DNA of 64,000 nt from contig NZ_JAASQO010000004.1 in the NCBI RefSeq assembly GCF_011762095.1, positions 186,001 to 250,000 on the forward strand. Direction: 5' to 3'. This DNA comes from Parvibaculum indicum. Its GTDB lineage: Bacteria > Pseudomonadota > Alphaproteobacteria > Parvibaculales > Parvibaculaceae. Below, piece after piece: positions 22,161-55,115 of this stretch. The notes beneath the pieces were generated by a model. It ran no database searches. It saw only the letters and a list, made by a program, of their open reading frames with translations, and had not been told where the DNA came from. The stretch's first letter is position 1. Each line of letters begins with the position of its first letter. The translations under genes and the position numbers were made by a program.

Positions 22161-22175
22161 GGGCACAGAGTGCCG
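22161..22175 (+). promoter_or_regulatory. ftr-like (FlbD-type) enhancer element 2 of flgE
   Basis: Read on the minus strand, CGGCA-CTCTG-TGCCC matches CGGCA-N5-TGCCG in nine of ten arm positions. It lies 66 bases upstream of the -24 element. Two tandem ftr sites per promoter are known in Caulobacter flagellar genes. Confidence 0.5.
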
Positions 22176-22221
22176 GGCAAAGGGGGCCGAAGGCGGTGTG
22201 TCCGTAGGGTCAAGTGGTTGA

Positions 22222-22234
22222 AATCAAAGGATTA
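22222..22234 (+). promoter_or_regulatory. IHF-binding consensus upstream of flgE
   Basis: AATCAA-AGGA-TTA fits WATCAANNNNTTR exactly. It lies between the ftr-like sites and the -24/-12 promoter, where IHF bends DNA to bring the activator to sigma-54 polymerase. Nearly the same sequence occurs upstream of flgI. Confidence 0.55.
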
Positions 22235-22241
22235 TGAGGTC

Positions 22242-22256
22242 TGGTCCTGTTCTTGC
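22242..22256 (+). promoter_or_regulatory. sigma-54 (-24/-12) promoter of flgE
   Basis: TGGTCC-N5-CTTGC gives the invariant GG-N10-GC spacing with a good TTGC -12 element; the -24 element is TGGTCC instead of TGGCAC. It lies about 65 bases before the flgE ATG. Confidence 0.6.
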
Positions 22257-28076: not shown

Positions 28077-29195
28077 TTAGCGCAGGAAGGAGAGCACGGC
28101 CTGGTCGGCCTGGTTGGCCAGCGACAGCGAGGTCGTGGACAGCGACTGGCGGGTCTGCAGGGCCAGCATGTTCGCACCTTCCTCGTTGGTGTCGGCAAGC
28201 GTCAGGTCGCCGGCACCGGAGTCCAGGATGTTGATCATGTTGTTCGTGAAGTCCTGCCGGTTCTGCACGACCGAGAGGTTGCCACCGAAGGTCGAGGACT
28301 GCGCGCGGAGCGTGTTCGTCGCCGAGTTCAGTTCCGCAACGGCCGTCGCAACCTTGGAGTCGGTCGAGAAGTCGGCCGAGTTGATGCCGAGGCCCGTCGA
28401 GCTGTAGCTCACGCCCGTGATGTCGAGCTTGGACGAACCGTCCTCGTTGAACTTCACGGTCAGGTTGTCGCCATTGAGCAGGTTGACGCCATTGAAGCTG
28501 GCATCGGTCGCCAACTGGTCGATCTGCGTGCGCAGGCTGTTGTAGTCCGTCTCGTAGGTCGCGCGGGCTTCCTCCAGCGTTTCGCCATTGTCGGAGCTGT
28601 CGGAGTTGATGCCCAGCGTCGTGGCGGCCGCCGCGCCGAAGGAGAGGTCTTCGCCGCTCGCGAGCGAGAAGCCCAGCGTGCCGTCGCCATTGTCGGTGAC
28701 CGTGAGGCCGGAGACGCCGGCACCGTCGATCTCGGCCTTGAGATCGGCCGCGCTGGTGACGTCCGAGGAAATGGTGACCGTCGCCGCCGTCGAGCCGCCG
28801 ACGATGATGTCGAGCGCTTCATTGGCACCCGCCGACGTGCTGAAGTCGTTCGCGGAGACCGTCGAAGAGGTCAGCGTCGTTGCCGTCGCCTTGGCCTGAA
28901 GGGCCTGGTTGGCGGTGGACTTGGCCTGGTCGACCAGCTTCTGGATCGAGGTGAGGCCCTGGTCAGCCGATTTCAGAGTCTGAACGGCGAGCTTCGTGGA
29001 GTCCTGAAGGGCCGTCAGGTCGGAGGCGCGGTTGGACAGGCCCTGAGCCGTGAAGAACGACTGCGGGTTGTCGAGAGCGCTGTTGACCTTCTTACCGGTG
29101 GACAGACGCGAAGACGTCTGAGCCATCAGGTCGGCCGTGTTCTGGAGGGAGAGGAGGTTCTGACGAACCGAAGCAGAAAGAGCAATACCACCCAT
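28077..29195 (-). CDS. fliC: flagellin 2
   Basis: A 372-residue flagellin. The N-terminal D0/D1 region (IALSASVRQNLLSLQNTADLMAQTSSRLSTGKKVNSALDNPQSFFTAQGLSNRASDL) and C-terminal region (LTLADTNEEGANMLALQTRQSLSTTSLSLANQADQAVLSFLR) are the alphaproteobacterial type. The hypervariable middle is short and Ser/Thr/Ala-rich, with many possible O-glycosylation sites. AAGGAAA precedes the ATG. It follows a second flagellin gene but is separated from it by a terminator, so it may have its own promoter; none could be identified in 29196-29309. Confidence 0.95.
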   Translation of the reverse strand: MGGIALSASVRQNLLSLQNTADLMAQTSSRLSTGKKVNSALDNPQSFFTAQGLSNRASDLTALQDSTKLAVQTLKSADQGLTSIQKLVDQAKSTANQALQAKATATTLTSSTVSANDFSTSAGANEALDIIVGGSTAATVTISSDVTSAADLKAEIDGAGVSGLTVTDNGDGTLGFSLASGEDLSFGAAAATTLGINSDSSDNGETLEEARATYETDYNSLRTQIDQLATDASFNGVNLLNGDNLTVKFNEDGSSKLDITGVSYSSTGLGINSADFSTDSKVATAVAELNSATNTLRAQSSTFGGNLSVVQNRQDFTNNMINILDSGAGDLTLADTNEEGANMLALQTRQSLSTTSLSLANQADQAVLSFLR

Positions 29196-29363: not shown

Positions 29364-30560
29364 TTAACCGAAGAGGCGCAGCACACCCTGTTCGGCCTGG
29401 TTGGCCAGCGAGAGCGCCGTGGTGCCCAGTTGCTGGCGCGTCTGAAGGGCGAGCAGCTTGGCGCCTTCTTCATTGGTGTCGGCCAGCGTGAGGTTGGAGG
29501 CGCCGGTCTGCAACGTGTCCACGAGGTTCTTGGTGAAGTCCTGGCGGATTTCGACCACGCCCAGATTGCCGCCGAAGGTGGAGGCCTGTTGGCGCAGCAC
29601 ATCGGTGGTGGAGTTGAGGCCGTTGATGAGGGCGGTGATGTTGCTGTCGGTCTCGAATTCGTGGTTGCCGTCCGTTGCACCGACCGAGGCGATGTTCAGA
29701 AGGCCGTCCGGGGTCAGCTCGACGCCCTCGATGTCCATCTTGCTGCTCTGGTCTTCATTGAAGAAGACGCTCAGCAGATCGCCCTTGAGCAGGTTGACGC
29801 CCTTGTAGCTCGCATCGTCCGCCAATTGCTGGATCTGCTCGCGCAGATTGTTGAAGTCTCTTTCGTACTTGTCGCGGTTCACGCCGTTGGACGAGGAGGT
29901 CTTCGTGCCGAGCAGTTTGGAAAGCGCGGTGTTGTCGGCGGAGTCCGTCGTGACGGTTACCGCGCGGCCCGAGGCGGCTTCCAGATGAAGCTGGCCGTCC
30001 TCGATGGAGGCGGTGACGCCTTCGCCCGTGAGATCGCCGCCCGCATCGTTGTTGATCGCATCGACAAGCGATTTGACGTCGCTGGAGGCGGTAATGGCGA
30101 AGTCGAAAGTCTTTTCGCCGACCGTGAGCGTGATCGTCTCGCCCGAGGTGAAGCCGCGGGAGGTGTCGGTCAGCGTGTTGGTCGCGCCGGAGGCCGTGGT
30201 GCCGGTGCCGACGACTTCGGTGGACGCCTTGCCGGTCAGCGTGGTCGCGCTGATCTTGGTTTCCAGCGCCTGGTTCGCCGTCGCCTTCAGGCTCTCCACG
30301 AGTTTCTGGATCGATGTGATGCCCTGGTCGGCGGCCTTCAGCGTCTGAATGGACTGCCCCATGCTATCGAGCAGGGTGTTCAGATCGGAAGCGCGGTTAT
30401 TGAGGCCCTGCGCCGTAAAGTAGGCGGTCGGGTTGTCAATCGCGCTATTCACCTTCAGGCCGGTCGAGAGACGAAGGTTCGTCTCCGAAAGCATCTTCTG
30501 CGTGTTCTGCATGCTGAGCAGATTGGAGCGGATCGCCCCGGAAAGAACCACATCAGCCAT
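29364..30560 (-). CDS. fliC: flagellin 1
   Basis: A 398-residue flagellin with the same N- and C-terminal core as its neighbour (LSTGLKVNSAIDNPTAYFTAQGLNNRASDL; LADTNEEGAKLLALQTRQQLGTTALSLANQAEQGVLRLFG) but a different, larger middle. The ATG at 30560 is chosen because AGAGGT lies eight bases upstream; an ATG six bases earlier would be too close. A sigma-54 promoter at 30735-30749 predicts a leader of about 160 bases, which contains a palindrome that could be an FlbT target. Two distinct flagellins suggest a composite filament. Confidence 0.95.
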   Translation of the reverse strand: MADVVLSGAIRSNLLSMQNTQKMLSETNLRLSTGLKVNSAIDNPTAYFTAQGLNNRASDLNTLLDSMGQSIQTLKAADQGITSIQKLVESLKATANQALETKISATTLTGKASTEVVGTGTTASGATNTLTDTSRGFTSGETITLTVGEKTFDFAITASSDVKSLVDAINNDAGGDLTGEGVTASIEDGQLHLEAASGRAVTVTTDSADNTALSKLLGTKTSSSNGVNRDKYERDFNNLREQIQQLADDASYKGVNLLKGDLLSVFFNEDQSSKMDIEGVELTPDGLLNIASVGATDGNHEFETDSNITALINGLNSTTDVLRQQASTFGGNLGVVEIRQDFTKNLVDTLQTGASNLTLADTNEEGAKLLALQTRQQLGTTALSLANQAEQGVLRLFG

Positions 30561-30622
30561 TGTCATCTACCTCTAGGGTTTTGCCGGCTCGTCGTATCAT
30601 CACGGCACAGCGGCTATACTCG

Positions 30623-30734: not shown

Positions 30735-30749
30735 GCACAAGCCGTGCCA
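30735..30749 (-). promoter_or_regulatory. sigma-54 (-24/-12) promoter of flagellin 1
   Basis: On the minus strand TGGCACGGCTTGTGC has a perfect TGGCAC -24 element and GG-N10-GC spacing. Transcription should start near 30723, giving a leader of about 160 bases. An ftr-like palindrome lies 76 bases upstream. Confidence 0.78.
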
Positions 30750-30761
30750 TAGAATTTTTAT

Positions 30762-30781
30762 CAATAAAAACAGTGGGTTGG
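30762..30781 (-). repeat. promoter-linked conserved element, copy A
   Basis: CAATAAAAACAGTGGGTTGG (plus strand) recurs with one change at 39451-39470. Each copy begins 12-13 bases upstream of a -24 element, so it appears to be part of the sigma-54 promoter architecture; its protein is unknown. Confidence 0.7.
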
Positions 30782-30824
30782 TTGTTTTCCGCCGGGGCGG
30801 GGCAGGCAATTGATGCGCGGCCCG

Positions 30825-30839
30825 CGGCAAAGTTTGCCG
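30825..30839 (-). promoter_or_regulatory. ftr-like (FlbD-type) enhancer of flagellin 1
   Basis: CGGCA-AAGTT-TGCCG is a perfect 5-bp inverted repeat. Its position 76 bases from the -24 element equals that of the flgF promoter. Confidence 0.65.
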
Positions 30840-30858
30840 GTCGGCAGGCAGGAAATGC

Positions 30859-32502
30859 TCAGCCGATCAGGCGCCCGGCGGCTTCCTTGCGGAATTGGGC
30901 GACCAGCGCCTCGCGGTCCCAGAAGGGCGCCTGCGGGTAGACGGCAAGGGAGGGATACCAGGGCAGGGACCCGGTGCCGAGCTGGTTGGCGTTCTCGATG
31001 GGGGCGAAGACGAGGGCGGGCGCCCCCAGCGCGCCGGCCATTTCGGTCGCCGCGTTCCACGACCCGACCGTGAGATCGAGTTCGCACAGAAGCGCGGCCA
31101 CGCCCTCCAGATCGTCATGGGTGTCGAGGCCCGGCATTTCATGGATCGTGATGCCGAGTTCCCGCCGGGCTTCGGCGAGTTCCTCTTCAGGTCCGGAATA
31201 TTGAAGGCTGACGAAATCGAACCGCTCGTCATCCAGGAAGGGCTTCCAGTCGGACAGGCGGGTGGCATAGAGGTCGCGCAGCGCGTTCGATATGCCGGAG
31301 CGCCAGGTAATGCCGATTTTTGGGCGCGGGCCCAGCGAGGAGAGCCAGTCGCGCGCGCGGGCCCGTTTTTCCGGGCAGGCGACGAGCCTTGGCGGATTTT
31401 TCGGGAAAGCGTCGAGGCCGCGGCGAAGATGGATGGACGGCATGGCGGCCGGCGCGGTCAGGTCGAAATCGATCTCGCCGTAATTGTCGAAGCCGGAGGC
31501 CAGTCGCGTTTCGGCGCGGACCGTCGCGCCGGGCCAGGTGCGCCGATAGAGCGGCACCACGCGCGGATCGGTTTCGATGATGACGTGGCCGGCGCGCTCC
31601 ACAATGTCGTGATAGACGGTCGAAAAGCGGAAATCGTCGCCCAGCCCCTGCTCGCGCCAGAGGAAAATCGTCTTGCCGGCGAGGTCTTCGTCTTTCCAGA
31701 TCAGGCCGGGAAAGGGGCGCAGCGGCGTGCGCACGCCGGATTCGAAGCCGTAGCCGTAAAGATCCCACCCGTTCTCGATGTCGCCGGTGGCGAGCAGGGC
31801 GAGGGCGAGGTTCCAGAGAATTTTGGCATTGCGGGGCGAGAGGGAAAGCGCCTGCCGGTAAAGCTGGATCGCATCCGCCGTGCGGCCCGAGTTCTGAAGC
31901 ATCGAGCCCAGATTGACGGCGGCCTGGACCAGGTCCGGCTTCAGCATCAGGGCGCGGCGATAGCAGGCTTCCGCTTCCTCGAACATGGCGGCATTGGCCA
32001 GATAGCGACCGAGATTGCTGTAGGCCTCGGCATTGTCGGGAAACATCTCGATGACTTCGGAGACGAGATCGACGGCAGCTTGCGTTTCGCCGCGCTCGTC
32101 GAGGAGCGAGGCGAGGTTGATCCGCGCGGAGGCGATCCGCGGCTCCTTGCGCATCAGTTTGCGGTAAATCTCTTCCGCGCGTTTCTTTTCGCCGCATTCC
32201 GCAAAGGCGATTGCGATGTCGAACTGCCGGGCCAGATCCTGCCCGGCACGGCGGGACGCCTTTTCGAGGTGTTTGCAGGCTTCTTCGGTGTCGTCGAGCA
32301 GGGCCAGGGCCTGCGCCATGACGAGGCGCGCCCGATGCGTGTCGGGCTTTTCCTTGAGGACGGCGTCGAGATGTTGGATGGCGGTCAGCGGATCGCAGGC
32401 CTTTACCGCCTCGGCGGCCAGGTCCAGCTTTTGCCGGAGGTCGGTCGCCCCGGAGGACGCCACCGGATCCGTCGCGATTTCAATTTCGATTTCGAACGCC
32501 AT
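30859..32502 (-). CDS. TPR protein with glycosyltransferase-like C-terminus (FlmG/FlbA-like)
   Basis: About 547 residues. The N-terminal half has tandem TPRs (for example ARLVMAQALALLDDTEEACKHLEKASRRAG, AEAYSNLGRYLANAAMFEEAEACYRRALMLKPD, AAVNLGSMLQNSGRTADAIQLYRQALSLSPRN). The C-terminal half has WKDEDLAGKTIFLWREQGLGDDFRFS and GITWRSGISNALRDLYATR, features of the GT9/GT41-like domain found after TPRs. In Caulobacter the TPR-glycosyltransferase FlmG modifies flagellin. The position directly upstream of flagellin 1 and the Ser/Thr-rich flagellins support the same role here. ATG 32502 follows GAGGG. Confidence 0.75.
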   Translation of the reverse strand: MAFEIEIEIATDPVASSGATDLRQKLDLAAEAVKACDPLTAIQHLDAVLKEKPDTHRARLVMAQALALLDDTEEACKHLEKASRRAGQDLARQFDIAIAFAECGEKKRAEEIYRKLMRKEPRIASARINLASLLDERGETQAAVDLVSEVIEMFPDNAEAYSNLGRYLANAAMFEEAEACYRRALMLKPDLVQAAVNLGSMLQNSGRTADAIQLYRQALSLSPRNAKILWNLALALLATGDIENGWDLYGYGFESGVRTPLRPFPGLIWKDEDLAGKTIFLWREQGLGDDFRFSTVYHDIVERAGHVIIETDPRVVPLYRRTWPGATVRAETRLASGFDNYGEIDFDLTAPAAMPSIHLRRGLDAFPKNPPRLVACPEKRARARDWLSSLGPRPKIGITWRSGISNALRDLYATRLSDWKPFLDDERFDFVSLQYSGPEEELAEARRELGITIHEMPGLDTHDDLEGVAALLCELDLTVGSWNAATEMAGALGAPALVFAPIENANQLGTGSLPWYPSLAVYPQAPFWDREALVAQFRKEAAGRLIG

Positions 32503-32609
32503 GCCCACCCTCGTTCATTCCGGCCGACGCCGGTGCCCAAACCAGATGCCCAAACCCGATGAAAATGGCCGAAACTTGGTTAGCGCATGGTTAAGGGCGG
32601 GGCCGGGCC

Positions 32610-33074
32610 TCAGGCGCGCTCGTCGAAGGCGATGGAGTTGTCGCGCGCGCGCGTCCGGCGGATCGCGGCATTGTCGCCATATCCGCCCGACGGCGCCTTC
32701 TGGCGGTTGACCGCTTCGGCCACCGCGTGGATCAGGCGGTCGGAGACCGATTTGGTGGCGAGCAGGGTCTCTTCGTTCCGGCGCATCGTCTCGTCGAGAT
32801 CGTGCATGGCCGCCTTCAGCTCGTTGATCTTTTCCGACGGCGCCCGGTCGATAAGCGCGGCGCGTTGGCGCACCGCCTGGCTGTCCATGGCGTAGTCGTT
32901 GGCGACGCGGATCTTTTCGGCCTGCAATTCGCCCAGCGCACCGATCTTGCGGGCCTGAAGGGCTTCGGTTTCGCGGGTCAGGATCGCGGTGAGGCTCGTC
33001 GTCAGGCGGAGCAGGCGCTCGGCAAGTTCGGCAGGCGGCAGTTGCTCGGCGGGAATGCGGCGCTCGGCGCTCAT
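32610..33074 (-). CDS. FlgN/FlbY-like flagellar protein
   Basis: A 154-residue, almost wholly helical protein (LAERLLRLTTSLTAILTRETEALQARKIGALGELQAEKIRVANDY...). Size, helical pattern with the segment ETEAL near residue 35, and position directly after flgI-flgJ match the FlgN-type export chaperone, called FlbY in alphaproteobacteria. Such chaperones hold FlgK and FlgL for export. The start overlaps the flgJ stop by four bases. The basic C-terminus (RRTRARDNSIAFDERA) is not typical and may be flexible. Confidence 0.65.
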   Translation of the reverse strand: MSAERRIPAEQLPPAELAERLLRLTTSLTAILTRETEALQARKIGALGELQAEKIRVANDYAMDSQAVRQRAALIDRAPSEKINELKAAMHDLDETMRRNEETLLATKSVSDRLIHAVAEAVNRQKAPSGGYGDNAAIRRTRARDNSIAFDERA

Positions 33075-33412
33075 TGGTGTTGCTCCTGAAGCTTGATGAT
33101 TTCCGAATAGACGGTGTCGGCAAGGCCGATGCCGCCGGATCTGGTCATTTCCTGGCCGTACTGGTCGACCAGCAGGGAACGGAACATTTCCTCGCCCTGT
33201 CCGCCGCCGAAGGTCTCGTCCGTTTTCAGGCCCTTGAACATCGATTGGAACATGGAGGAGAGGAACTGGGACTCGAAATCCTGCGCGGCGGCCCAGGCCT
33301 TGGGATCCTTGCCGTCCGGCGCGTTCTGGCTCGCGGCCTGGTGGCGCGAACCGGCGACCTGCATGAAGGCGGGCTGGAAGGCGCCGGAGGAGAGGGCGGT
33401 CATGTCCATCAC
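33071..33412 (-). CDS. flgJ: rod-binding protein FlgJ (short, no muramidase domain)
   Basis: A 113-residue FlgJ N-terminal-type protein. The conserved rod-binding core is AAQDFESQFLSSMFQSMFKGLKTD and GQGEEMFRSLLVDQYGQEMTRSGGIGLADTVYSEI. The peptidoglycan hydrolase domain present in enteric FlgJ is missing, as usual in alphaproteobacteria. It acts as scaffold or cap for rod assembly. The gene overlaps flgI by four bases upstream and the FlgN-like gene by four bases downstream, so the three are one operon. Confidence 0.9.
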   Translation of the reverse strand: MMDMTALSSGAFQPAFMQVAGSRHQAASQNAPDGKDPKAWAAAQDFESQFLSSMFQSMFKGLKTDETFGGGQGEEMFRSLLVDQYGQEMTRSGGIGLADTVYSEIIKLQEQHQ

Positions 33413-34545
33413 ATCACCTCGATTTCGGCCTGCAGCGCGCCGGCGGATTTGATCGCCTGCAGAATGGTGATCATGTCGCGCGGGCTGACGCCCAGCGCAT
33501 TGAGCCCGTCCACCAGTTCGGCCAGCGAGATCGAGCCGTCGAGAATGCCGAGCTTGCGGTCGGCCTGCTCGTCGACCTGCACGTCGGTGCGCGGCACGAC
33601 GACGGTGCGGCCATTATTGGCGAAGGGGTTGGGCTGGCTGACCTGCGGGGTTTCCTGCACGGAGATCGTCAGATTGCCCTGGGCGATGGCCACGCGGCTG
33701 ACGCGCACGTCCTGACCCATCACGATGACGCCGGAACTTTCGTCGATGACGACGCGGGCCGGGGCATCGGGTTCGACGCGGAGCTGCTCGATCTCGGTCA
33801 GCAGGCCGACCACGTCGTCGCTGAATTTCGGCGGGATCCTGAGATCGATGGTGGTGGGATTGTCGGCCTTGGCGGCGTCGCCGCCGAGATAGGCGTTGAT
33901 GGCGGAGGAGACGCGGCGGGCCGTCGTCAGGTCCGGATTGCGCAGCGCCAGACGCAGCGTCTTCAGGTCGGAAAGCTTGAAGGCGATCTCTTTTTCGACG
34001 ATCGCGCCATTGGCGATGCGGCCATTGGTGGGGACGCCGCGCACCACGGAGGCGGCCTGACCCTGCGCGGCGAAACCGCCGGTGGCCAGCGAGCCCTGTG
34101 CGACGGCATAGACCTGGCCGTCGGCGCCCATGAGCGGGGTGACGAGCAGGACGCCGCCCTGCAGATTGGTGGCATCGCCAAGCGCGCTCACCGTGACGTC
34201 GATGCGGGTGCCCTGGGGCGCGAAGGCCGGCAGGTTCGCCGAGACCATGACGGCGGCCACATTATCCGTCTTGAGCGCCGTGCCGCGCGTGTTGACGCCC
34301 AGCCTTTCGAGCATGCCGATCAGGCTTTGCTGGGTGAAGGGGGCGTTGCGCAGCGTGTCGCCGGTGCCGTTCAGGCCGACGACGAGGCCGTAGCCGACCA
34401 GCATATTGTCGCGAATACCTTCCACATCGACGATATCCTTGATGCGCGAGGCGCCTTGCGCCGGCGTGACGACCAGCGTCAGCAGGCAGGCAAGCGCGGT
34501 CAGCGCGGCTGCGATACGGTCGAAAGAAGAAAAGATGCGGAACAT
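33409..34545 (-). CDS. flgI: flagellar P-ring protein FlgI
   Basis: A 378-residue P-ring subunit with signal peptide (FRIFSSFDRIAAALTALACLLTLVVTPAQGA) and the family core SRIKDIVDVEGIRDNMLVGYGLVVGLNGTGDTLRNAPFTQQS. The C-terminus LVDGLNALGVSPRDMITILQAIKSAGALQAEIEVM is complete. FlgI forms the periplasmic ring around the rod. A longer in-frame start (34605) can be excluded because it lies upstream of the start site predicted by the sigma-54 promoter at 34590-34604. It is divergent from fliX. Confidence 0.95.
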   Translation of the reverse strand: MFRIFSSFDRIAAALTALACLLTLVVTPAQGASRIKDIVDVEGIRDNMLVGYGLVVGLNGTGDTLRNAPFTQQSLIGMLERLGVNTRGTALKTDNVAAVMVSANLPAFAPQGTRIDVTVSALGDATNLQGGVLLVTPLMGADGQVYAVAQGSLATGGFAAQGQAASVVRGVPTNGRIANGAIVEKEIAFKLSDLKTLRLALRNPDLTTARRVSSAINAYLGGDAAKADNPTTIDLRIPPKFSDDVVGLLTEIEQLRVEPDAPARVVIDESSGVIVMGQDVRVSRVAIAQGNLTISVQETPQVSQPNPFANNGRTVVVPRTDVQVDEQADRKLGILDGSISLAELVDGLNALGVSPRDMITILQAIKSAGALQAEIEVM

Positions 34546-34589
34546 GAGATGGGGTACTCGTTTTTCGCCAGCGATCCTGCCTCTGTCTA

Positions 34590-34604
34590 GCGAATGCCGT
34601 GCCA
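34590..34604 (-). promoter_or_regulatory. sigma-54 (-24/-12) promoter of flgI
   Basis: On the minus strand TGGCACGGCATTCGC has the canonical TGGCACG -24 element and exact GG-N10-GC spacing. Transcription should begin near 34578, about 30 bases before the flgI ATG. Confidence 0.82.
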
Positions 34605-34631
34605 AAGCCGAACGGACCGGCCGGGCCGGTG

Positions 34632-34644
34632 TAACCCTTTGATT
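34632..34644 (-). promoter_or_regulatory. IHF-binding consensus upstream of flgI
   Basis: On the minus strand AATCAA-AGGG-TTA fits WATCAANNNNTTR exactly and shares TGAAATCAAAGGRTTA with the flgE site. It lies between the -24 element and the ftr-like palindrome. Confidence 0.6.
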
Positions 34645-34723
34645 TCATTCGATTCCGGTGCGGGCCGGCCGGCGGGCGGCGGCGGCTTTCCGGTGCCGGG
34701 CGGCAGGGCTTTCCGGCTTCGGG

Positions 34724-34738
34724 CGGCAAAAACTGCCG
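34724..34738. promoter_or_regulatory. ftr-like (FlbD-type) site between flgI and fliX
   Basis: CGGCA-AAAAC-TGCCG is a perfect 5-bp inverted repeat in the divergent region, 120 bases upstream of the flgI -24 element and 16 bases from the CtrA box of fliX. It could activate flgI and modulate fliX. Confidence 0.62.
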
Positions 34739-34753
34739 GGAGCGGGACGGGAT

Positions 34754-34768
34754 TTAACCCCGCCTTAA
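34754..34768 (+). promoter_or_regulatory. CtrA box upstream of fliX
   Basis: TTAA-CCCCGCC-TTAA fits the CtrA consensus TTAA-N7-TTAA exactly, about 60 bases before the fliX start. In Caulobacter fliX is an early, CtrA-activated flagellar gene. Confidence 0.78.
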
Positions 34769-34828
34769 GCCTCGCGACCCATTCTCCATAGTCTGAAAGC
34801 GCATGGGTGAGCGCAGTTGGGGGCCATG

Positions 34829-35266
34829 ATGAAAATCGGGCAGACAAAGAGCACATCGGGAACGCAGGGCAAACGGTCCGCCGGGTCGGCGGGGACGGGC
34901 GCGGCGTCCGGCTTTACCATCGGCGAAACGGGAACGGCCCGTGCGAGCGCGGGCCTGAGCGCGCCGGCTTCCATCGGCGCGGTCGATGCGCTGCTGGCGC
35001 TACAGGGCGCCGAGGCGGCCGAGGATGCGCTGGGCGCGCCGCGCCGCGCCATGGAACGCGCCGAAGACATGCTCGATATTCTGGATCAGGTGAAGATCGA
35101 CCTGTTGTCGGGCGAGGTGCCGGTCAACCGGCTGACCCGTCTTCTGGGCGTGGTGGGCCGCAAAAAGGGCCGGGTGGCCGATCCCGGTCTTCAGGATCTT
35201 CTCGACCAGATCGAGCTTCGGGCAAGGGTGGAACTGGCGAAATTCGGCAATTTTCCGGAGAACTGA
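34829..35266 (+). CDS. fliX: flagellar assembly regulator FliX
   Basis: About 145 residues. The C-terminal half (GAVDALLALQGAEAAEDALGAPRRAMERAEDMLDILDQVKIDLLSGEVP, then LDQIELRARVELAKFG) is the FliX domain; the N-terminus is low-complexity. In Caulobacter FliX couples assembly of the early flagellum to the activity of the sigma-54 activator FlbD. Its presence supports reading the CGGCA-N5-TGCCG palindromes as FlbD sites. ATG 34829 has GGGGG five bases upstream; ATG 34826 and TTG 34817 are alternatives. A CtrA box lies upstream. Confidence 0.88.
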   Translation: MKIGQTKSTSGTQGKRSAGSAGTGAASGFTIGETGTARASAGLSAPASIGAVDALLALQGAEAAEDALGAPRRAMERAEDMLDILDQVKIDLLSGEVPVNRLTRLLGVVGRKKGRVADPGLQDLLDQIELRARVELAKFGNFPEN

Positions 35267-35439
35267 GCGGATTCTGCCTGCTTTTTAGGCAAATCGGCCT
35301 TCAGCCAAGTCATTGCCAGTACTGGATTTTCACCGATATTTCATGCGCGGAATCGCGTCGGCGCAGTTGAGAATCGTGGGTTGTCTCCATATACTCCGCC
35401 GCGCTTGGTTAGGGCTCGTTTGAGGGAGTGACCGTCGGT

Positions 35440-35856
35440 ATGGCAGTGCGTTTACCCAAAGGCTATGCGCCATCGGACGATGAGCCGTTTATGAACAAAC
35501 GGCAGAAAGAATATTTCCGTCTCAAGCTGGAGAAGTGGAAAGACGACATCCTGAAGGAAAACCGCGAAACGCTGCAGCACCTTCAGGACGATTCTTCCAA
35601 CCATCCGGATATTGCGGATCGCGCATCGAGCGAGACCGAACGGTCGCTCGAGCTGCGCACGCGCGACCGGCAGCGCAAGCTGATCTCCAAGATCGACGCG
35701 GCGCTGCGCCGGCTGGAGGACGGAACCTATGGCTATTGCGAGGAGACGGGAGAACCGATCAGCCTGAAGCGGCTGGACGCGCGCCCCATCGCCACGCTGT
35801 CGATCGAGGCGCAGGAACGCCATGAGCGCCGCGAAAAGGTTTATCGCGACGACTGA
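35440..35856 (+). CDS. dksA: RNA polymerase-binding transcription factor DksA
   Basis: A 138-residue DksA/TraR protein. A coiled-coil hairpin (KRQKEYFRLKLEKWKDDILKENRETLQHL...DIADRASSETERSLELRTRDRQRKLISKIDAALRRLEDGTYGYC) leads into the globular part. Only one Cys (residue 100) of the four zinc-finger Cys remains; the second CxxC is replaced by ARPIATLSIEAQE, as in Cys-poor alphaproteobacterial DksA. It modulates initiation with ppGpp. ATG 35440 starts the conserved part; GTG 35428 is possible. The gene has its own terminator. Confidence 0.92.
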   Translation: MAVRLPKGYAPSDDEPFMNKRQKEYFRLKLEKWKDDILKENRETLQHLQDDSSNHPDIADRASSETERSLELRTRDRQRKLISKIDAALRRLEDGTYGYCEETGEPISLKRLDARPIATLSIEAQERHERREKVYRDD

Positions 35857-35882
35857 TCGCGTTTGAGCGAACCGGATGAAAA

Positions 35883-35918
35883 GAACGCGGCCCCTCCTCA
35901 CGGGGGGCCGCGTTTTTT
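35883..35918 (+). terminator. rho-independent terminator of dksA
   Basis: AACGCGGCCCC pairs with GGGGGCCGCGTT around a short loop and is followed by a run of six T. Confidence 0.92.
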
Positions 35919-35963
35919 GTTGGGTCGAGTTGTTGGGACCCGTGAGTCCGGAGACTGTCGCCC

Positions 35964-35992
35964 TGGATCCCGGCAGAAGGCCGGGGTGACAT
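35964..35992. repeat. dispersed GC-rich intergenic repeat, single unit
   Basis: A unit starting TGGATCCCGGC and ending GGCCGGGGTGACAT, similar to the right halves of the repeats at 3468-3551 and 20972-21057. It lies between dksA and flgH. Confidence 0.7.
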
Positions 35993-36001
35993 TCAGAATT
36001 T

Positions 36002-36754
36002 TCAGAACGGCATCAGGATGTCGTAGAGCTGCTGGCCGTAGCGGGGCTGCTGCACATCGGTGATCTGGCCGCGGCCGCCATAGGAAATCCGGGCCTCGGC
36101 GATCTGGGTATGTTCGATGGTGTTGGTGTTGGAGATGTCCTCCGGCCGCACCACGCCCTGAACGGTCAGTTCGCGCACTTCATTGTTCACGCGCACTTCT
36201 TGACGGCCCGCGATGACGAGATTGCCGTTGGGCAGCGTCTGGGTCACGACTGCGGCGATGGTCAGCGCGATCGATTCCTGACGGTTGACGGAACCGGTGC
36301 CGGTGCTGGAGCTGGTGCTGCCCGCGCCGACGAGATTGGTCGGGTCCACCGCGTCGGGCAGGACGTGGCTCAGATTGCTTTCCAGCCCGAAGAAATTGCT
36401 GAGATTGGCGTCTTCTGAATTGTCGCGGCTGCGCTTGGAGGTGTTGTCCACCTTGGCGCTGTCGGCAATGTCGATCTTCACCGTCAGGATATCGCCTTCG
36501 CGGCTGGCACGCTGATCGCGGAAGAAGGCGCGGGAGCCGGAGCGCCAGAGCGAGTTGGGCTCGTAGACGATCCTTTCGGGCTGCGGCATGGGCATGCCGA
36601 CGCGCCGGTTCGCATCACCGGACAGGCCGGCGCCGACCGGGGCCAGCGCGGGGGCCTGGCCGATATTCTCGATGCGGTCCACGGCGCTGCAGCCGGCAAG
36701 CAGGGCGCCGGACAGGACGAAGGCGGAGAGGTTGAAAAGAGAACGCGGGATCAT
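36002..36754 (-). CDS. flgH: flagellar L-ring lipoprotein FlgH
   Basis: A 250-residue outer-membrane ring lipoprotein. The signal ends in lipobox LLAGC (Cys22). The core has SLWRSGSRAFFRDQRASREGDILTVKIDIADSAKVDN and the C-terminal GVVRPEDISNTNTIEHTQIAEARISYGGRG, both diagnostic of FlgH. It forms the L ring with FlgI's P ring. It is the last gene of the flgF-flgG-flgA-flgH operon on the minus strand, 47 bases after flgA. Confidence 0.95.
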   Translation of the reverse strand: MIPRSLFNLSAFVLSGALLAGCSAVDRIENIGQAPALAPVGAGLSGDANRRVGMPMPQPERIVYEPNSLWRSGSRAFFRDQRASREGDILTVKIDIADSAKVDNTSKRSRDNSEDANLSNFFGLESNLSHVLPDAVDPTNLVGAGSTSSSTGTGSVNRQESIALTIAAVVTQTLPNGNLVIAGRQEVRVNNEVRELTVQGVVRPEDISNTNTIEHTQIAEARISYGGRGQITDVQQPRYGQQLYDILMPF

Positions 36755-36801
36755 GGAAACTGCCTTTGCTTTGATGTCTCTGCCGGATGCGAAATCGCGG
36801 A

Positions 36802-37800
36802 TCAGCCGTTGCGCGGCCCGGCGCCCAGCGAGGCTTGGGCGGGGGAGGCGGCGTCGATGCTGATCGTGTTGGGCGCGGACACCGTGCCTTCGATCGTGCG
36901 GTTGGAACGGATATTCATGATACGGACGACATCGCCGATGGCGCCGTCTTCAAGGGCGCGGCCGCGCGCGGTCAGCGTGAGCGCGCCGGTCTTGTAGATG
37001 ACGTCTACCTGCGCGCCCTTGCTGACGAGGACGGGCGGTTCCATGTCGGACAGGCGCAGCGGCTCGCCCGCGCGCACCGGACGGCGCGGCGACATGCCCC
37101 GGAGCTGGGTTTCGGAGCCGATGATGTTGCCGGCGACGCGGCTGGCGGGGAGCTTTACCCACTGGATGTCGCGGGCCTTCACCACATCGCCGGGCGTCAT
37201 GTCGCGCGACAGCACGGGCACGTCGCGCACCGGATAGGCGCGGCCCGACACGCGGCGCAGCGGCGCGAGTGCATCGTCGGCGGGGGCGCGGAGGGCGGCG
37301 GCGAAGGTGCCGTTGCGGTTGTTCCAGGCAAGCTGTTCGACCTTCACCGTCAGGGGCGCGCCGTCCGCGACCTGAATGCCGGCAAGGCCTTGCGCGAAAT
37401 CCACCTGGAGGGAAGAGGGATCGCTGAGGGAGGGCGAACGCGCCGTCACGGCATCGGCGATGGCGGCGGCGATGTCGGTTTCGGGTACCTGAACGCCCGC
37501 GCGGGCGATGACGACATGGGTCAGGCCGGCGTGATTGTGCCAGTCGATACCGCTGCGCCGCGCGGCCAGCGAGATGCGCGAGACGGAAAGCTGGCCGGCA
37601 AGGCCGGGGGCGGGTGCCTGGGCGATGACGACATTGGCGGCACGGCCCGCATCGTCGAAGAGGTCGCCCAGCGTCACCACATCCTGCGACACGGTGACGG
37701 CGGGATGCAGCTCGGCGGCGGCAAGCGGCGCGGCGGCGGACGCGGCGAACACAAGGCCGAGAGCGACGATGCGACAGGAGGCGAGGAGAGCGCGGATCAT
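36802..37800 (-). CDS. flgA: flagellar basal-body P-ring formation chaperone FlgA
   Basis: A 332-residue periplasmic protein with signal peptide (MIRALLASCRIVALGLVFAASAAAPLAAA). The N-terminal region with VTLGDLFDDAG and VVIAQAPAPG and the C-terminal SAF domain (VPVLSRDMTPGDVVKARDIQWVKLPASRV...; PVRAGEPLRLSDMEPPVLVSKGAQVDVIYKTGALTLTARGRALEDG) identify FlgA, the chaperone for P-ring assembly. The N-terminal extension is longer than in enteric FlgA (about 220 residues) but common in alphaproteobacteria. AAGGAAC precedes the ATG. It lies 12 bases after flgG. Confidence 0.93.
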   Translation of the reverse strand: MIRALLASCRIVALGLVFAASAAAPLAAAELHPAVTVSQDVVTLGDLFDDAGRAANVVIAQAPAPGLAGQLSVSRISLAARRSGIDWHNHAGLTHVVIARAGVQVPETDIAAAIADAVTARSPSLSDPSSLQVDFAQGLAGIQVADGAPLTVKVEQLAWNNRNGTFAAALRAPADDALAPLRRVSGRAYPVRDVPVLSRDMTPGDVVKARDIQWVKLPASRVAGNIIGSETQLRGMSPRRPVRAGEPLRLSDMEPPVLVSKGAQVDVIYKTGALTLTARGRALEDGAIGDVVRIMNIRSNRTIEGTVSAPNTISIDAASPAQASLGAGPRNG

Positions 37801-37812
37801 CGGTACCGTTCC

Positions 37813-38598
37813 TTACTTCACGTTCGAGGTGACGGACATCATCTCGTCCGAGGCGGAGATGATCTTGGCGTTCATCTCATAGGCGCGCTGGGCGGTGATG
37901 AGCGAGGTGATTTCGTTCACCGCGTTCACATTCGAGGTTTCGAGGAAGCGCTGCTGAAGCGAGCCGAAGCCGGTATCGTCGGGATTGCCGAGCGTCGCGG
38001 CGCCGCTTGCGGTGGTTTCCTGAAAGAGGTTGTTGCCCATCGGGTCGAGGCCGGACTCGTTCTGGAAGGTGGCGAGTTCCAGCGTGCCGACGATCTGCGC
38101 GTCGGTCTGGCCGGGGATCTTGGCCTGGACCTGTCCGTCGGCGGAAATGGTGACGTCGGTCGCATCCTGGGGAATGGTGATGCCGGGGGCCACGGTGTAG
38201 CCGTCGGCGGTCACGATCTGCCCGTCGGGCGAAAGCTGGAAGGAGCCCGCGCGGGTATAGGCGTCTTCGCCGCTGGGAAGCTGCACGTGGAAGAAGCCCC
38301 GGCCCTGGATGGCGATGTCGAGATCGTTGCCGGTGTTTTCGTAGCCGCCCTGCGACATGATGCGGTAGACGGAGCCCGTCTTCACGCCGAGACCGACCTG
38401 AATGCCGGCGGGCACCACCGTGCCGCTGTCCGACGAGTTGGTGCCGACGCGGCGCAGGTTCTGATAGAGCAGATCCTGGAACTCGGCGCGCTGACGCTTG
38501 AAGCCCGTGGTGCTCATATTGGCGATGTTGTTCGAGATGACCTCGACGTTGAGCTGCTGGGCCATCATGCCGGTGGCGGCGATGCTGAGGGACTGCAT
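37813..38598 (-). CDS. flgG: flagellar distal rod protein FlgG
   Basis: A 261-residue rod protein with N-terminal motif MQSLSIAATGMMAQQLNVEVISNNIANMSTTGFKRQRAEFQDLLYQNLRR and the family segment GNDLDIAIQGRGFFHVQLPSG. The C-terminus SNVNAVNEITSLITAQRAYEMNAKIISASDEMM is complete. FlgG forms the distal rod through the L and P rings. It lies between flgF and flgA in the operon. Confidence 0.95.
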   Translation of the reverse strand: MQSLSIAATGMMAQQLNVEVISNNIANMSTTGFKRQRAEFQDLLYQNLRRVGTNSSDSGTVVPAGIQVGLGVKTGSVYRIMSQGGYENTGNDLDIAIQGRGFFHVQLPSGEDAYTRAGSFQLSPDGQIVTADGYTVAPGITIPQDATDVTISADGQVQAKIPGQTDAQIVGTLELATFQNESGLDPMGNNLFQETTASGAATLGNPDDTGFGSLQQRFLETSNVNAVNEITSLITAQRAYEMNAKIISASDEMMSVTSNVK

Positions 38599-38636
38599 GT
38601 TCTAGATCCTCTTTCTCAAAAATCCGCGGCGGCGCT

Positions 38637-39368
38637 TCAGGCGGCCTGGCCGAGTTTGGAAATGGCGTCGCGGCGCATCCGGTCGGCGCTGTCGACGAGT
38701 TTCTGGGCGCTCGCATAGGAGCGGGTGACGTCGATCATGTTCGTCATCTGGAGGATGGCGTTGACATTGGAGCCTTCCAGCGCGCCCTGCACGACATGCG
38801 GCTTTTCGACGGGCACTTCCGGCTGGTCGGTGGTGTAGAGCGTGCCGCCCGCCGCCTTCAGCAGGCGCTCATTGTCGAATTCGACGAGGCCGAGCGTGCC
38901 GCGCTGGCCCTGATCGGTCGAAATCGTGCCGTCGCGGGCGATGGCGATGTCCTGCTCGTCGGGACGGAAGGTGACGACCGAGCCGTTGTCGTCGAGTACG
39001 GGGTTTCCTGAGACATCGACGAGGCGGCCCTGCGCGTCGAGCGAGAAGTGGCCGTTGCGGGTGTAGCGGATGCCCGCATCCGTCTGGACCTTGAAATAGC
39101 CCTTGCCGGCAATGGCGACGTCCATCGGGTTGCCCGTCGGTTCGAGCTTGCCGTCGGCCAGGTTGCGGTTGAGGCCGATGTCCTGGACGAAGGAGAGCGA
39201 CTTGTCCGGGCTGTCCTCGGAGGCGACCGGCATGACGTATTCGTCGAACAGCATGGATTCCGACTTGTAGCCATTGGTGTTCATGTTCGCGAGGTTGTTC
39301 GCGATGATGGCCATGTTGCGTTGCATGGCCATCTGTCTCGACAATCCGATGAGCAGTGCGTTTTCCAT
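38637..39368 (-). CDS. flgF: flagellar proximal rod protein FlgF
   Basis: A 243-residue rod protein beginning MENALLIGLSRQMAMQRNMAIIANNLANMNTNGYKSESMLFDEYV, with GNPMDVAIAGKGYFKVQTDAG and a C-terminus SNVNAILQMTNMIDVTRSYASAQKLVDSADRMRRDAISKLGQAA. It is homologous to FlgG and is the first gene of flgF-flgG-flgA-flgH. A sigma-54 promoter 57-71 bases upstream, a conserved 20-base element and an ftr-like palindrome precede it. Confidence 0.94.
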   Translation of the reverse strand: MENALLIGLSRQMAMQRNMAIIANNLANMNTNGYKSESMLFDEYVMPVASEDSPDKSLSFVQDIGLNRNLADGKLEPTGNPMDVAIAGKGYFKVQTDAGIRYTRNGHFSLDAQGRLVDVSGNPVLDDNGSVVTFRPDEQDIAIARDGTISTDQGQRGTLGLVEFDNERLLKAAGGTLYTTDQPEVPVEKPHVVQGALEGSNVNAILQMTNMIDVTRSYASAQKLVDSADRMRRDAISKLGQAA

Positions 39369-39424
39369 GGTGCAGTCGTCCTGGGTGGCTGTCCGGTTTG
39401 CGCTGTGATCCCGGGTTTGCTTGT

Positions 39425-39439
39425 GCAGGCGCTGTGCCA
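39425..39439 (-). promoter_or_regulatory. sigma-54 (-24/-12) promoter of flgF
   Basis: On the minus strand TGGCACAGCGCCTGC has a perfect TGGCAC -24 element and GG-N10-GC spacing. Predicted transcription start is near 39413, about 45 bases before the flgF ATG. Confidence 0.82.
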
Positions 39440-39450
39440 GATAAATATTT

Positions 39451-39470
39451 CAATGAAAACAGTGGGTTGG
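39451..39470 (-). repeat. promoter-linked conserved element, copy B
   Basis: CAATGAAAACAGTGGGTTGG (plus strand) differs by one base from 30762-30781 and sits at the same place relative to the -24 element. Confidence 0.7.
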
Positions 39471-39514
39471 CGTTTCCACGACGGCGGCGTTATTTGCTTG
39501 TGGAAGGCTTTACC

Positions 39515-39529
39515 CGGCAAAAACTGCCG
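39515..39529 (-). promoter_or_regulatory. ftr-like (FlbD-type) enhancer of flgF
   Basis: CGGCA-AAAAC-TGCCG is a perfect 5-bp inverted repeat, identical to the site at 34724-34738, 76 bases upstream of the flgF -24 element. Confidence 0.67.
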
Positions 39530-55014: not shown

Positions 55015-55029
55015 AGGCAGAATTTGCCG
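55015..55029. promoter_or_regulatory. ftr-like site on the fliO side
   Basis: AGGCA-GAATT-TGCCG matches CGGCA-N5-TGCCG in nine of ten arm positions. It lies 8 bases from the CtrA box. Confidence 0.5.
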
Positions 55030-55037
55030 CGTCAGAC

Positions 55038-55052
55038 TTAATGCCGGGTTAA
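55038..55052. promoter_or_regulatory. CtrA box between fliO and flgB
   Basis: TTAA-TGCCGGG-TTAA fits TTAA-N7-TTAA exactly. It could serve either divergent operon; early flagellar export and basal-body genes are CtrA-activated in Caulobacter. Confidence 0.78.
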
Positions 55053-55100
55053 ACGAACGGACAGTCGCCGTCTTTTTAGGTAAATGCGAAATGAAACGCC

Positions 55101-55115
55101 CGGCAGAAATTGCCG
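55101..55115. promoter_or_regulatory. ftr-like site on the flgB side
   Basis: CGGCA-GAAAT-TGCCG is a perfect 5-bp inverted repeat within CCCGGCA...TGCCGCC. In Caulobacter an ftr site near the CtrA-activated fliF promoter lets FlbD shut it off; the same logic may apply here. Confidence 0.62.

Follow-up and report, generated by a model that had tools for sequence, protein, structure and literature searches.

The window analyzed here is a 64,000-nucleotide stretch of the Parvibaculum indicum genome (assembly GCF_011762095.1, contig NZ_JAASQO010000004.1, positions 186,001 to 250,000) in which the flagellar genes flagellin 1 and flgF are each preceded by a palindrome, a nearly identical 20-base element (20-mer) and a sigma-54 -24/-12 box. 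The 20-mer very probably binds IHF, a protein that bends DNA, and would thus sit between the sigma-54 promoter and the palindrome, the probable enhancer for FlbD. Both promoters most likely belong to the FlbD/IHF/sigma-54 type known from Caulobacter flagellar genes, and appear ordinary in kind and well conserved in the family Parvibaculaceae. The initial annotation had proposed a composite promoter with the site of a third, unnamed factor between enhancer and sigma-54 box. The composite arrangement stands, but the factor need not go unnamed, as the site fits IHF; a supposed unknown factor is thereby replaced by a named one.

A probable IHF site between enhancer and sigma-54 promoter

The geometry described in the initial annotation was reproduced. 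Palindrome matches start 76 bases from the -24 base at both promoters (30825 and 30749 at flagellin 1, 39515 and 39439 at flgF), whose reading direction is the minus strand, and the shared 20-mer starts 13 bases (flagellin 1) or 12 bases (flgF) from the -24 base. A search of the 4.02-Mb genome allowing up to three mismatches returned these two promoter sites alone, and the reversed control pattern returned none. The 20-mer is absent from any third genome site and hence is not a common repeat scattered through promoterless DNA, the outcome named beforehand as speaking against the proposal.

The IHF core consensus is printed in PMC7962754 as WATCARNNNNTTR, and the Escherichia coli consensus leaves the N4 spacer free. 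This core is matched with one mismatch at flagellin 1 and flgF and perfectly at a third flagellar gene of the window, flgI. The A/T-rich arm of an IHF site is expected on the WATCAR side of the core, and A/T-rich sequence lies on that side of the 20-mer core at both flagellin 1 and flgF. At flagellin 1 the tract runs on from the 20-mer to about position 30750, and across the family an A/T tract lies 10 to 12 bp from the core in both orientations (flgF/flagellin and flgI). We favor IHF over an unnamed factor because the core, the A/T arm, the permitted variation, the position and the use of the site in both orientations all fit.

The genome encodes ihfA, ihfB and flbD, all above NCBIfam cut-offs, together with fliX and rpoN. 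With these five genes, a sigma-54 box upstream of the gene at a conserved position, a palindromic enhancer at a conserved distance and a candidate IHF site between enhancer and promoter, the features of the Caulobacter-type FlbD/IHF/sigma-54 flagellar promoter that can be read from sequence are present. In the mechanism we envisage, IHF would bend the DNA between the enhancer and the sigma-54 promoter, and the bend would let FlbD, presumably under regulation by FliX, touch and remodel the polymerase carrying sigma-54 at all three genes, flagellin 1, flgF and flgI. The three elements, their conserved spacing, the consensus-bound variation, the inverted flgI copy with the same layout and the protein genes are present in the DNA, and from these we infer IHF and FlbD binding, DNA bending and a need for them in vivo.

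Table 1. Coordinates of promoter elements and genes, numbered from the first base of the window
Feature	Position	Strand	Basis or remark
Second flagellin gene	28077-29195	-	
Flagellin 1	29364..30566	-	NCBIfam flagellin models, strong matches but below whole-protein cut-offs
Sigma-54 -24/-12 box of flagellin 1, TGGCACGGCTTGTGC	30735..30749	-	Pattern match and anchored family alignment
20-mer at flagellin 1 (CAATA...)	30762..30781	+	Candidate IHF core and start of A/T arm
Candidate IHF core at flagellin 1, AAACAGTGGGTTG	30768-30780	+	One mismatch to WATCARNNNNTTR
Palindrome GGCAAAGTTTGCC, putative FlbD/ftr-like enhancer of flagellin 1	30826..30838	.	FlbD assignment inferred
Sigma-54 box of flgI, TGGCACGGCATTCGC	34590..34604	-	Pattern match and family comparison
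Candidate IHF core of flgI, AATCAAAGGGTTA	34632..34644	-	Perfect consensus; orientation opposite to flgF/flagellin sites
Palindrome GGCAAAAACTGCC between flgI and fliX	34725..34737	.	Pattern match
fliX	34829..35245	+	Divergent from flgI, palindrome between them
flgF	38637..39368	-	NCBIfam TIGR02490, above cut-off
Sigma-54 -24/-12 box of flgF, TGGCACAGCGCCTGC	39425..39439	-	Pattern match and family comparison
Second 20-mer, at flgF (CAATG...)	39451..39470	+	Candidate IHF core (39457-39469) and start of A/T arm
Palindrome GGCAAAAACTGCC, putative FlbD/ftr-like enhancer of flgF	39516..39528	.	FlbD assignment inferred

Conservation in the family and inversion at flgI

FlgF is present in 37 of the 40 genomes of the family, P. 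indicum included. Stretches from 36 relatives were compared, and upstream regions were aligned on the sigma-54 box, which yielded 35 flgF and 28 flagellin-1 promoters (the flagellin promoter of relative G005 was anchored by hand). At flgF, the IHF core with at most one mismatch occupies one fixed position in 32 of the 35 promoters and is perfect in 20, whereas among 2000 permuted versions of the consensus none exceeded 24 at a single position. All 28 flagellin-1 promoters carry the core at one of two adjacent positions (15 and 13 promoters), with 21 perfect matches; for the commoner position, the highest count among the 2000 permuted versions was 12 promoters. The family cores are centred 24 to 25 bases upstream of the -24 box. 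A wider test accepted a match in either orientation between -45 and -8 and gave 32/35 for flgF, 28/28 for flagellin, 31/31 for flgI and 33/55 for other alphaproteobacteria. Permuted consensuses averaged 4.2, 3.9, 3.0 and 7.1 with maxima of 26, 24, 19 and 20, and 0 of 500 reached the observed value in any set, although these permutation counts are not probabilities because related genomes are not independent. In the family alignment the strongly conserved columns from -32 to -5 read YAA-N4-YTGATTT followed by a T-rich stretch, with a partial preference within N4; such a pattern is that of a predicted IHF core and arm.

At flgI the site points the other way in every one of the 31 family genomes with a usable upstream region, at -32 to -34 in 24, at -22 in six and at -12 in one, positions that differ by steps of about 11 bp, roughly one helical turn. 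The distances of the distal flgI palindrome are also stepped (123-128 in 16 genomes, 112-115 in 12, 136 in two and 93 in one), and the two series of steps are not always coupled, as in G022, where a palindrome at -113 accompanies an IHF core at -33. Columns that had not been used for site finding (arm, N4 and 3' flank) correlate between reversed flgF and flgI (r=0.74) and between flagellin and flgI (r=0.61). Neither correlation was reached in 10,000 column shuffles; for the arm alone, 0 shuffles (flgF) and 6 shuffles (flagellin) did so. Inversion and movement in steps of about 11 bp are easier to reconcile with a protein that bends DNA than with an activator bound to one orientation. A protein that bends DNA around a near-dyad should be usable either way round, which would not be expected of an activator that has to contact the polymerase from one fixed side. 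The way the IHF site faces and its helical step could even serve as a promoter-class code, one way at flgF and flagellin and the opposite way at flgI, where shifts would be confined to whole turns. We regard this as rather unlikely; if true, such a code could adjust how strongly, or in what order, FlbD drives transcription as the flagellum is built.

The palindrome is similarly constrained. At flgF, a copy with at most one mismatch is found at -80 to -86 in 35/35 family promoters (34 exact), centred at -83 (20) or -84 (15); single-base shuffles gave 0.17 of 35 on average. Its flagellin counterpart occurs in that interval in 23 of 28 promoters, with centres from -81 to -84 and only six of the 23 exact. 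Because the same spacing is found family-wide, the 76-base distance is not special to the flagellin 1/flgF pair. Second copies are frequent: flagellin promoters usually have two palindromes (at most one mismatch), near -82 (23/28) and near -62 (25/28), and 28 of the 35 flgF promoters, that of P. indicum not among them, have a mostly imperfect second copy (five exact) 14 bp closer to the promoter. The pattern is mildly enriched, with 138 matches in the window versus 117 expected (two mismatches) and 29 exact genomic matches versus 15 for the reversed control. Position, gene content and a presumed likeness to ftr sites suggest that the palindrome is an FlbD (ftr) site. The flgF palindrome sits between the divergent genes flgF and fliL (39699, plus strand) and might also act on fliL-fliM. 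Elsewhere, two exact palindromes 86 bp apart (55016-55115) lie upstream of flgB/flgC-like genes and may be repressive FlbD sites; no sigma-54/IHF set was detected near them at the thresholds used.

Outside the family, 55 of 56 alphaproteobacterial flgF loci have a sigma-54 box, and 25 of the 33 IHF-like cores found among these 55 are in the flgF orientation at -24/-25. Beyond the Parvibaculaceae, then, many but not all flgF promoters have an IHF site, or else the consensus there is looser. Of the 53 promoters in this set with a palindrome, 51 have it at 60-130 bp, and these distances give R=0.50 at 10.5 bp; because the genomes are related and the peak is broad (highest R=0.53 at 11, 0.48 at 12), helical phasing is only suggested.

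Counter-evidence and rival explanations

Several observations, besides the relatedness of the genomes, weigh against assigning the 20-mer to IHF. Neither P. indicum copy is a perfect site, since both carry A for T in WATCAR, and the N4 spacer is partly conserved across family promoters. Three of the 35 family flgF promoters (G005, G032 and G033) and 22 of the 55 from other alphaproteobacteria have no core match at one mismatch. The motif is partly self-complementary, such that five of 35 flgF and six of 31 flgI sites also match the other way at one mismatch; because of this, the orientation of a site is decided by the better match and the arm. Finally, WATCARNNNNTTR with one mismatch is found 25 times in the window versus 25.1 expected by chance, so the IHF assignment rests on position and conservation. 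The same applies to the sigma-54 boxes, which rest on position and conservation rather than rarity, because a genome scan with TGGCACNNNNNTTGC at one mismatch gave 201 matches versus 274 for the reversed control and thus no excess.

A 20-base near-identity shared by two unrelated genes and absent elsewhere in the genome, with a partly conserved N4 spacer, is what one would expect if an unnamed sequence-specific regulator common to flagellin 1 and flgF bound the 20-mer. However, the near-identity is gone in the nearest relative (G015), while the changes stay within the IHF consensus, and flgI has the whole extended motif in inverted form, with the spacer preference as well. We found no conservation beyond what known factors explain, since the strongly conserved columns from -32 to -5 correspond to an IHF core and arm and the inverted site at flgI shows the N4 preference too. 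Such a regulator thus appears highly improbable. The comparison with G015, whose FlgF is 95% identical and which has a perfect IHF core at flgF, also bears on how the two copies came to be so similar. The flgF and flagellin 1 elements agree at 19 of 20 positions in P. indicum but at only 14 of 20 in G015 (9 to 17 of 20 in 26 other genomes compared), so the 19/20 identity is particular to P. indicum; as far as the alignments tell, drift of the 20-mer across the family is confined to the IHF consensus. A recent small gene conversion could have made the two copies near-identical, on top of both being IHF sites, and 19/20 does exceed every one of 952 cross-genome pairs (at most 18/20). Yet the shared stretch is hardly longer than the motif, diverged orthologous sites occupy the same position in relatives, and chance agreement is possible because both sites are held to one consensus, and we therefore give conversion little credence.

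A choice also exists within the HU/IHF family, as the genome has four PF00216 genes: besides ihfA and ihfB it encodes an HU-like protein, L238, and a fourth member, L240, both below all NCBIfam HU/IHF cut-offs (IHF alpha, IHF beta and HU). HU binds DNA with little sequence specificity, and ihfA and ihfB are present above cut-off, so that use of the site by another member of the family, rather than by IhfA/IhfB, has a minimal likelihood. The mechanically called open reading frame of L240 (contig 14, 1318-1761, plus strand) carries about 57 extra N-terminal residues, and its start may be wrong.

Neighbouring flagellar loci and known systems

The second flagellin gene has no comparable sigma-54/IHF/palindrome promoter in 25 of 26 genomes (P. 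indicum and 24 of 25 relatives), judged from the best sigma-54 candidate in each; in the exception, G013, the best-scoring flagellin lacked the promoter instead. Because no flgF-like promoter was found, transcription of this gene probably continues from flagellin 1 or is under some other control. A gene close upstream of flagellin 1 (30859-32508, minus strand) encodes a protein of 549 residues that begins with a TPR region, a layout that resembles the Caulobacter flagellin glycosyltransferase FlmG, with the TPR region matched and no glycosyltransferase domain. Upstream of a flgE-like hook gene (22162-22242) are palindromes, a perfect IHF core (22222-22234) and only a weak sigma-54 box, which leaves the promoter of that gene uncertain.

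Among the matches listed for the Parvibaculum literature, no title concerned these promoters, a result that falls short of showing that no such work exists. The 94 family promoters of three genes now form a comparative set for the FlbD/IHF/sigma-54 architecture outside Caulobacter. With their constant spacing, the inverted sites and the 11-bp steps, they allow a direct test of helical-phase models for sigma-54 activation assisted by IHF.

According to PMC3096577, transcription of class III/IV flagellar genes in Caulobacter depends on IHF as well as sigma-54 polymerase, with FlbD and FliX as regulators; that paper and PMC3930126 describe FliX as controlling FlbD. The P. indicum promoters resemble those of Caulobacter crescentus in having, as read from the sequence, a sigma-54 box, an upstream palindromic enhancer and an IHF-type site between them, as well as flbD, fliX, ihfA, ihfB and rpoN in the genome and the same gene classes (rod, ring and flagellin); they differ in belonging to another family. 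The opposite IHF orientations at flgF/flagellin and flgI and the second palindromes at many promoters are features seen in the Parvibaculaceae. More generally, as described in PMC7962754, an IHF site between enhancer and sigma-54 promoter brings the activator to the polymerase, for example at nitrogen fixation genes. The arrangement in P. indicum has the same layout as such IHF-assisted promoters, but unlike those of nitrogen fixation it serves flagellar genes, and its activator is likely FlbD rather than a nitrogen regulator.

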